Part shown: in pieces, positions 13,693 to 15,321 of the stretch | How the letters are laid out: the number at the start of each line of letters is the position of its first letter | How positions within the stretch are numbered: position 1 is the stretch's first letter | From: an uncultured Ectothiorhodospiraceae bacterium | GTDB taxonomy: Bacteria; Pseudomonadota; Gammaproteobacteria; S012-40 | DNA length: 37,983 nucleotides | NCBI GenBank assembly: GCA_945787715.1 | Contig: CALZJE010000033.1 | Location: 1 to 37,983, forward strand | Direction of reading: 5' to 3' | Program-made: the position numbers and the translations under genes | The notes under the pieces: generated by a model | What the model was told of the DNA's origin: nothing | What the model saw: only the letters and a program-made list of their open reading frames with translations | The model's database searches: none

Positions 13693-14019
13693 TCAAAATG
13701 TTTTGCAATATTTTGTTGAAAATTGCTTTATGATTTTGGCTTGATCGTAAAAACCAAAAACACTATGATTTTTAGGATTTGTTTTCCTTTTTCTCAAGTT
13801 CTGAGTGGGCATGAATAAAAAAGGGGAGCCTATGCTCCCCTTGTTTTCCTCTTTTTCGTTGTCATCCTCAAACTCATCGAACCACTCATCGATGGCACTA
13901 TTAGTCGAGAGACGTGTCCGCACGCGTTGCCCGGTTTTAGATTTTATGTGCGGTCCTCCCTTTCGTAGTAGTGGGGATCGGGCCACTGGATTTCTTATGG
14001 TTACACTTGCTTTTGGCAT
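13693..14019 (-). CDS. small basic/acidic protein whose frame runs through an intrinsic terminator (non-stop mRNA candidate)
   Basis: ATG at 14019 has AAAAGGAG seven bases upstream, an excellent RBS; an upstream in-frame ATG (14058) has none. The first ~40 residues are basic (R-N-P-V-A-R-S-P-L-L-R-K-G-G-P-H-I-K-S-K), and residues 41-60 are strongly acidic (D-E-W-F-D-E-F-E-D-D). At codons 60-66 the DNA forms a 9-bp GC-rich hairpin plus T6 (13817-13842), and no stop codon precedes it. The frame stays open 40 more codons, to a TGA at 13693. Most transcripts should therefore end without a stop codon after ~67 codons. arfA of gammaproteobacteria and brfA of Bacillus, ribosome-rescue factors, are built this way. 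Similarity to ArfA itself is faint (S-P-L-x-R followed by a Lys/Gly/Arg stretch). It lies on the same strand downstream of the RES/Xre pair. Function otherwise unknown. Confidence 0.65.
   Translation of the reverse strand: MPKASVTIRNPVARSPLLRKGGPHIKSKTGQRVRTRLSTNSAIDEWFDEFEDDNEKEENKGSIGSPFLFMPTQNLRKRKTNPKNHSVFGFYDQAKIIKQFSTKYCKTF
13817..13842 (-). terminator. intrinsic terminator inside the coding frame
   Basis: On the minus strand AAGGGGAGC, loop ATAG, GCTCCCCTT, then TTTTATT; the T-run counts six in a row with the stem's last two. The stem is 9 bp and perfect. It is better placed for minus- than plus-strand transcription because the uninterrupted T-run is on the minus strand, though the other side (TTGTTTTCC) might also work weakly. 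Confidence 0.85.
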
Positions 14020-14038
14020 AGTGATTCTCCTTTTAATG

Positions 14039-14152
14039 TTAACCTTTAACGCACACAATTTGTTCCAGTGTACGTACGATTTCTATCAGATTGTTCTGAA
14101 CTTCCATCACTTTATTGATGTCTTTTTAGGTTGCTGGGATTAGATCGATCAT
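14039..14152 (-). pseudogene. short ORF interrupted by an in-frame TAA
   Basis: Between the RES toxin and the stop-less gene, ATG 14152 with AAGGAT upstream opens eight codons (MIDLIPAT), then TAA (14126-14128). The same frame then continues for 28 codons (K-D-I-N-K-V-M-E-V-Q-N-N-L-I-E-I-V-R...) to a second TAA at 14039-14041. The second part looks like an amphipathic helix. It could be a small gene with a nonsense mutation, or a 22-25-residue peptide starting at an internal GTG or ATG. It ends 20 bases before the next ATG, as expected within an operon. Identity unknown. Confidence 0.35.
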
Positions 14153-14197
14153 TTATTTATCCTTAGGACATTTGATACCTTCTGTTTGTTCCTCAAC

Positions 14198-14890
14198 CTA
14201 CAAAAAACTCACGATAGCAATAACTTCCCCGGGCTGACGCTCAACGGTTACGCTATGTGTATGTGGATCAAACTCATAGCTTAAATAGCAATGCAAGCGT
14301 GTGTTGCTCAATATTTCTTTACGGAACACAACAACATTTTCTCCGTTGTGGAAACGAGCCGACGGGGCAATCAAACCTGGGTGACCTTCGCGTTGGAGGC
14401 GAAGAGCAATCTGCTGCGTAAAATTATAATCACTAGCTATCAATTCTGGATACTGAGTTTCCTTGCCGGATAGATTTATTAACAACGCGCGGCAATGGAT
14501 ATCATAAACGGCTCGTTCGCGATAGACGATCTCATTAAGCCCTTCTATTTGTAATTCACTTTTTATCATGTGATAGGCGGTTTCATAGATCGTGGTATCA
14601 AGAGTCACGGCGCCATACCAGACGGGAAACGTACCATCACCGAACCGAGTGTTTAAATACGGTTCGTGGGTAAAAGGATATTCAATCGCTGTTGTGTAGT
14701 GAAAAGCGCGATCTGTCATAGTGGGTGAAACGTCTTTTTTAACTTCGCTTTCAAGTTCTCTTGCCAGATTTGAGAGCGCTTCATCACCTTCCGAGAGGTC
14801 ATCAAAAAGATCTTCACTGATTCGCAATGAAACAATATTTCGTTTAACTGATCCGTTGAGATCCCGGTTGCAGGTTAATAAGTCATCCAT
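14198..14890 (-). CDS. RES-domain toxin (NAD+ phosphorylase type)
   Basis: A 230-residue RES-family protein, the toxin half of a Xre/RES type II toxin-antitoxin module. Known RES toxins degrade cellular NAD+ with phosphate. The N-terminal ~70 residues are a charged extension. The RES core follows, with R-F-G-D-G-T-F-P-V-W-Y-G-A (conserved Arg and Tyr of the active site), T-T-I-Y-E-T-A-Y-H, and near the C-terminus H-P-G-L-I-A-P-S-A-R-F-H-N-G-E-N-V-V-V-F-R, the typical Ser/Asn closing motif. It starts 11 bases after the antitoxin stop, so the two are co-transcribed. Length is at the upper end for the family because of the N-terminal extension. No truncation is visible, so it is probably active. 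Confidence 0.85.
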   Translation of the reverse strand: MDDLLTCNRDLNGSVKRNIVSLRISEDLFDDLSEGDEALSNLARELESEVKKDVSPTMTDRAFHYTTAIEYPFTHEPYLNTRFGDGTFPVWYGAVTLDTTIYETAYHMIKSELQIEGLNEIVYRERAVYDIHCRALLINLSGKETQYPELIASDYNFTQQIALRLQREGHPGLIAPSARFHNGENVVVFRKEILSNTRLHCYLSYEFDPHTHSVTVERQPGEVIAIVSFL

Positions 14891-14901
14891 GTGATACGGG
14901 T

Positions 14902-15321
14902 TTATTGTCCTCGGAGAAAATCAAGATAACGAGCAACACGCGCAACGCCGACTAAACCCTGTTCTTTCATCACATCAACCGGTGTTTGACCATTAAATAT
15001 TTGATTGCGCCGATTCACCCAGCTATAGCGTAATGATTCATTCTTAGGATAGAGTAAGCGCAGTGCTTTATGACAGGAAAGTAGCCAGCCCACGCGGTCT
15101 CTGACATCACGTGAAGCAGGAAGGGGAGAGGCGGCATTGCGATATTTATTCAATAGGGATCGACTGGATTCACTTAATCCTAACAAATTTAGCTGAGTTG
15201 CATTATCTAGTTCCCACAATTCAAACAGTTTGGTTATTAACTTGGCTGCTTTTTTTCGGTTCTCGGGGCTATTTAGATCAATATCTGTTCGGGAATCGAT
15301 GAAATTTGGTTGAAATGACAT
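14902..15321 (-). CDS. MbcA/ParS/Xre-type antitoxin of RES toxin
   Basis: A 139-residue protein. The N-terminal ~85 residues are helical and in the position of the Xre-like DNA-binding part (A-T-Q-L-N-L-L-G-L-S-E-S-S-R-S-L-L helix-turn-helix-like segment). The C-terminal ~55 residues match the DUF2384 toxin-binding domain: H-K-A-L-R-L-L-Y-P, W-V-N-R-R-N-Q-I-F-N-G-Q-T-P-V-D-V-M and G-L-V-G-V-A-R-V-A-R-Y-L-D. It precedes the RES toxin by 11 bases, the standard order. GAGGA lies eight bases before the ATG. Such antitoxins bind their own promoter; an AT-rich region with repeated TATATA blocks lies directly upstream (15373-15401). Confidence 0.85.
   Translation of the reverse strand: MSFQPNFIDSRTDIDLNSPENRKKAAKLITKLFELWELDNATQLNLLGLSESSRSLLNKYRNAASPLPASRDVRDRVGWLLSCHKALRLLYPKNESLRYSWVNRRNQIFNGQTPVDVMKEQGLVGVARVARYLDFLRGQ

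Follow-up and report, generated by a model that had tools for sequence, protein, structure and literature searches.

A small gene in the window (the whole 37,983-nucleotide stretch analysed here) carries the signature of a transcription terminator inside its coding frame, and it is likely (probability roughly 0.7) that it belongs to a new family of backup ribosome-rescue factors, kept silent by tmRNA, that arose convergently with ArfA and BrfA; rescue activity and recruitment of a release factor are inferred. The in silico evidence shows a non-stop architecture that recurs and is conserved, an operon setting, and a genome with tmRNA and without ArfA. Within the catalogues and open-access literature searched, the family is widespread and undescribed.

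A reading frame without a stop before the hairpin

The frame opens at an ATG at 14019(-) and closes only at the TGA at 13695-13693, about 40 codons past the hairpin (Table 1). The stem, AAGGGGAGC-ATAG-GCTCCCCTT, has 9 bp, six of them GC, and occupies nucleotides 178-199 of the ORF; together with the T6 run it covers nucleotides 178-203, or codons 60-68, with no in-frame stop earlier. Its predicted RNA fold reaches -19 kcal/mol, where shuffled sequences average -9.6 (z -3.55), and the hairpin is also terminator-like on the plus strand, where it faces a convergent PPK2-like gene. The initial annotation had claimed a good ribosome-binding site and a 9-bp GC-rich hairpin with T6 near codons 60-66, preceded by no stop; both claims held, the latter with codons 60-68 as its extent. 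A terminator within the coding region, as in the non-stop design, is strongly supported here; the support lies in sequence only, and transcripts have not been measured.

Table 1. Features of the small gene and its upstream neighbours in the window
Feature	Positions	Strand	Remarks
Whole ORF of the small gene	13693..14019	(-)	108 codons + TGA
Shine-Dalgarno AAAGGAG	14027..14033	(-)	7 nt ahead of ATG; direct reading
Conserved family core, residues 9-33, RNPVARSPLLRKGGPHIKSKTGQRV	13921..13995	(-)	alignments of family members
9-bp GC-rich hairpin within the coding frame	13821..13842	(-)	
T6 run completing the intrinsic-terminator signature	13817..13822	(-)	expected transcript 3' end
Decayed rtcB C-terminal remnant	14042..14197	(-)	~50 codons, interrupted by in-frame stops; immediately precedes the gene
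RES-domain toxin gene	14198..14890	(-)	PF08808 E=9e-23; neighbour, outside the switch
Xre/MbcA/ParS-type antitoxin gene	14902..15321	(-)	PF09722 E=2e-9; neighbour

A transcript ending at the T-run encodes MPKASVTIRNPVARSPLLRKGGPHIKSKTGQRVRTRLSTNSAIDEWFDEFEDDNEKEENKGSIGSPF, and the non-stop product is predicted to comprise about the first 66-67 residues of the ORF, transcript ends being inferred. An acidic tail had also been claimed and is indeed present after residue 41, but charge in the conserved core (residues 1-41) is basic throughout: it has ten basic and no acidic residues and a pI of 12. Across the family the core follows the pattern RNPVARSPLLRKGG.H.KS....R. The GGQ catalytic motif is absent from every aligned member, and no member tested matches the RF-1 domain (PF00472).

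Terminators and hairpins before the stop

Whether such a layout is exceptional can be judged from a class sample of 27 members, not selected for hairpins, and 52 control genes from the same loci with tails matched in length, counting hairpins with a score of 8 or more. An intrinsic terminator or strong hairpin precedes the stop in 15/27 members versus 1/52 controls (p=4.3e-8); taken separately, strong hairpins do so in 13/27 versus 1/52 (p=8.5e-7), and intrinsic terminators lying wholly before the stop are found in 8/27 versus 1/52 (p=5.8e-4). A broader control gave 3 of 100 genes below 60% GC, versus 7 of 35 members. Clear terminator cases beyond the window are L057 (genome G207), L059 (G044), L061 (G231), L067 (G243), L075 (G192), L077 (G365) and L127 (G428). 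One locus counted as terminator-before-stop, L071 (G027), is doubtful, having a GC-rich hairpin whose T-run overlaps the stop. At L053 the terminator is met in a second reading frame: in this metagenome assembly (L053:2305-2505) a frameshift lies inside the core, and the downstream frame still enters the hairpin and T-run without a stop. Several members carry long hairpins without a T-run, for which processing is assumed. The search also recovered true ArfA genes with the same layout, for example L088. The in-frame terminator or hairpin design thus recurs in many families, with repeated origin, as shown in silico; the claim that the gene is built like arfA and brfA is supported by these homologues with pre-stop hairpins, with or without a T-run.

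Conservation of the hairpin rather than the peptide

The initial annotation had suggested asking whether the hairpin persists where the protein sequence after it differs, and in g190, the closest genus that could be compared, the answer is favourable, one species reading the hairpin in another frame. Four species (G207, G391, G396 and G388) keep the hairpin CGGGGAGCC-AA-TGGCTCCCCG (CGGGGAGCCAATGGCTCCCCG), 110-118 nt past the invariant His codon, and the protein beyond it is unrelated across species (SVISGVKTNLHYLL, SVIMDDEMKLHWQV, SFIKPHTFSRWS and FLLMS). In G388 the hairpin is read as TTGSQWLPVVF instead of DGEPMAPRSLF. Because the same hairpin is kept with different peptides, and in another frame in G388, the conserved object is the RNA structure, not the peptide. 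The gene that follows is convergent in G207 and codirectional in G391 and G396.

In G359 and its relatives, the frame enters a hairpin of about 22 bp (15 bp, a mismatch and 7 bp) in which 96% of cells are paired and 11 of the 22 pairs show changes on both sides, a level of covariation reached by 0 of 500 shuffles. A loop insertion shifts the frame of the 3' arm in L129/L130, the stop is located in the hairpin loop in L132/L143, and G104 (L099) has the same hairpin architecture in unrelated sequence. This structure resembles the mismatched RNase III site of E. coli arfA (PMC3989581). Terminator-type and RNase III-like solutions both occur within the family, RNase III cutting being inferred.

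Homologues with a normal stop ahead of the hairpin position would have pointed to a recent loss of the stop in the window, a worry that was partly realised. Normal stop codons end L005 and L007, which lie in the rtcB operon; in the Arenicella group the stop is followed by a terminator; and the hemW-ChaC-linked Betaproteobacteria (L026-L050) have conventional gene ends. With many homologues ending ordinarily, mostly without an in-frame hairpin, the non-stop design must be regarded as lineage-dependent, not universal.

Distribution of the family

Among 84,980 species genomes searched, 49 relatives were found, mainly in Gamma- and Betaproteobacteria. A profile search marked 28 of 369 gammaproteobacterial genomes as positive, or 26 (~7%) once two spurious, low-scoring matches (L081 and L082) had been dropped; in the order of G359 alone the profile matches 25/147 genomes. 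The gene was not found in the other sampled genomes of the window organism's taxonomic family. Scans against Pfam, NCBIfam and PHROGs gave no credible match (a PBP1_TM hit at E=0.02 was put down to chance), no PDB sequence matched the family profile at E<=10, and the plasmid and phage collections held no family match, the sole IMG/VR hit, L054, being an unrelated phage structural protein aligned through its acidic stretch. No description of the family was found in the open-access literature searched; subscription papers and preprints lay outside that search.

Linkage to RNA repair genes

An rtcB gene lies within 2.5 kb of the family gene in 14 of 26 family-positive genomes. The order is fullest at L005 and L153 (G388), where an RbfA-like gene is followed by RtcB, a GNAT-like protein of about 312 residues and the family gene; at L012 and L015 a slipin gene precedes the family gene and rtcB follows it. 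The RbfA-like (30S-binding) gene sits just ahead of rtcB at L005:192-635, L007:2013-2710, L153:4497-4910 and L154:1751-2134, a position that suggests an operon for repair of ribosomal RNA. The ~312-residue protein has no Pfam or NCBIfam match and is conserved together with both rtcB and the family gene (L005:1914-2849, L153:6249-7181 and about 20 further loci). Its AlphaFold model (pLDDT 85) is predicted to be GNAT-like over residues 84-312, with a conserved motif EALIEEIQSDW; we call it GNAT-like only, because a fold search showed no similarity beyond that (best VIA Z 8.7, Foldseek E 0.13).

In the window itself rtcB survives only as a remnant, a PF01139 match interrupted by two TAA codons (tblastn E=3e-12, 58% identity to the L053 RtcB). 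The RES toxin/antitoxin pair (14198-15321) seems to have taken the place of the front (5' part) of the rtcB operon. The small gene has been retained after rtcB decay both here and in G207 (L006), where an intact ArfB gene (L006:3326-3775) is directly upstream of the rtcB remnant and the stop-less gene. RtcB was not found in four family-positive genomes (G192, G201, G361 and G365).

Rescue repertoire of the genomes

The presence of ssrA, arfA and arfB had been flagged as worth checking. The window genome has a tmRNA gene, which encodes the tag ANDENYALAA, and an RF-1 domain protein of ArfB length; ArfA was not found in it. Because of that ArfB-length protein, the need for a further rescue factor is not obvious. 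ArfA occurs in 6/369 genomes of the class, none of them family-positive, and is above cut-off in 0/147 genomes of the G359 order; co-occurrence is zero where about 0.5 would be expected, which is not statistically significant with so few ArfA genomes. In genus g61, G201 has the family and G063 and G305 have ArfA, a pattern that is consistent with replacement but carries no significance alone. The ArfA of G173 (L086) is of the KGKGSY type.

Comparison with known rescue systems

ArfA (YhdL; PF03889), from E. coli and other beta- and gammaproteobacteria, is likewise a small basic protein in genomes with tmRNA, and its mRNA, too, is non-stop, owing to an in-frame hairpin past the functional core (by RNase III cutting and/or termination). 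In E. coli, RNase III cuts a mismatched stem-loop in arfA; the resulting mRNA is non-stop, and tmRNA tags the protein made from it (PMC3989581). That the family might itself be ArfA homologues was rejected: none of 35 members matches PF03889, the profile-profile probability from hhalign is 0.3%, and the KGKGSY motif is absent from the family alignments. The faint resemblance to ArfA that had been claimed therefore lacks statistical support. The family differs further from ArfA in its linkage to rtcB and in having the core RNPVARSPLLRKGG.H.KS in place of KGKGSY.

BrfA (YqkK) of Bacillus subtilis has almost the same layout as the window gene (terminator at codons 60-68, predicted product of 66-67 residues): brfA has 71 codons, with a Rho-independent terminator inside the coding region and a non-stop product of about 62 residues, and is restricted to Bacillaceae (PMC6881298). 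The invariant His of the family is reminiscent of the His residues through which BrfA contacts 16S rRNA, a likeness that we offer as a lead only. ArfT, a 40-residue rescue factor known only from Francisella, comes from a gene that is not non-stop; its Lys/Gly-rich segment KKGGSTNKK (PMC6299226) is loosely like RKGGPHIKSK of the family, only this ArfT fragment having been compared. In gene design the family stands beside ArfA and BrfA, and profile and motif place it outside the ArfA family, full sequences of BrfA and ArfT not having been compared.

A further parallel is the RtcB2-PrfH operon, in which an RtcB ligase is joined by a ribosome-releasing protein in the repair of 16S rRNA after colicin E3 (PMC9223846). 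In the present family the partners of RtcB are a putative rescue factor and an RbfA-like protein. PrfH is homologous to GGQ release factors, whereas the family protein lacks GGQ and has about 60 residues.

Proposed mechanism and alternative readings

On the rescue-factor reading, transcription would end at the in-frame hairpin and T-run, and RNase III would cut the in-frame hairpin in other lineages. Ribosomes would finish the whole conserved core before reaching the 3' end of the mRNA, where they would stall. While tmRNA-SmpB is active the product would be tagged (an inferred step) and destroyed; were trans-translation overloaded or lost, a protein of about 66 residues would accumulate. We propose this behaviour, silent while tmRNA works and on when it fails, because it is established for the arfA and brfA gene design. 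By analogy with ArfA, BrfA and ArfT, the basic KGG.H.KS....R segment would occupy the empty mRNA channel, and the protein is inferred, again by analogy, to recruit a canonical release factor (RF1 or RF2) that frees the stalled ribosomes. Since the gene is part of an operon of RtcB, RbfA-like and GNAT-like genes, or a leftover of one, the probable task of its product is to free ribosomes that have stalled on cut mRNA or damaged rRNA, allowing the RNA to be repaired; action on ribosomes halted by cut RNA is suggested by the RtcB/RbfA-like association, by analogy with PrfH beside RtcB2 (PMC9223846). Transcript ends, tagging, rescue activity, release-factor recruitment and a trans-translation-dependent protein level all remain inferences, with no biochemical or expression data behind them. 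A bolder version, which we hold to be slightly less likely than not, makes the family the ribosome-release arm of an RtcB/RbfA-like ribosome-repair operon: stalled or cleaved ribosomes would overload tmRNA and so open the switch, the protein and a release factor would clear the ribosomes, and RtcB would then re-ligate the damaged RNA.

An objection to a rescue function is that no sequence homology to any proven rescue factor was detected; the initial annotation's suggestion of a new rescue factor is supported as an interpretation, and the activity itself is undemonstrated. The switch could be real and the protein some other small protein related to ribosomes or RNA repair, such as an RtcB or RbfA partner or a signal, with a level that depends on how much tmRNA capacity is spare. 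In favour of this are the close linkage to rtcB and the RbfA-like gene, the normal-stop versions in several lineages and the missing homology. We nevertheless think it unlikely: the naturally stop-less genes that have been described, arfA and brfA, code for rescue factors that recruit RF2 (PMC3989581, PMC6881298), the protein resembles ArfA and BrfA in size and in having a basic Gly-rich segment, and the gene outlives rtcB in the window and G207 and is present without detected RtcB in G192, G201, G361 and G365.

Other readings would remove the switch altogether. The hairpin might be an ordinary bidirectional terminator shared with a convergent neighbour, the missing stop being incidental. Its appearance on both strands beside the convergent PPK2-like (+) gene fits this, as do convergent neighbours at L006, L002, L067, L075 and L077. 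This reading is nonetheless very unlikely, given that the same hairpin is kept beside a codirectional next gene at L118 and L119 (codirectional cases also include L053, L157 and L158), that a pre-stop signal is found in only 1/52 controls and that several members have long hairpins with no T-run. A narrower form, in which the hairpin serves the PPK2 gene only, was rejected, since it persists with codirectional neighbours. A recent stop-codon loss or a decaying gene in one genome could be imagined from the decayed state of the adjoining rtcB and the gene's absence from the other sampled genomes of the taxonomic family, but it is all but excluded: the core is fully conserved, the ribosome-binding site is good and independent stop-less members occur in many families, so that the homologues already contradict it.

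In the literature searched, a natural lack of a stop codon combined with silencing by tmRNA is described for arfA and brfA, and the authors of the BrfA work expected further systems of this type, not yet identified (PMC6881298). If the rescue-factor reading is true, a further family without detectable ArfA homology, spread over many gammaproteobacterial families and employing terminators as well as RNase III-like hairpins, would mean that the stop-less switch has evolved repeatedly; it would also give bacteria lacking ArfA a candidate backup rescue factor and link the rescue of ribosomes with RNA repair by RtcB. The stop-less hairpin signature is usable as a search criterion for further rescue factors.

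Observations at individual loci

Three arrangements deserve a brief record. In the hemW-ChaC-linked group (L026-L050) the homologue sits between hemW and the ChaC-like gene, and in many cases its stop overlaps or lies near the downstream start. At L022:3992-4339 a deletion has apparently produced an in-frame fusion between the small gene and the last ~60 rtcB codons. At L152 (G027:C10:46044-46701) a family member and ssrA are divergently oriented, about 160 bp apart.
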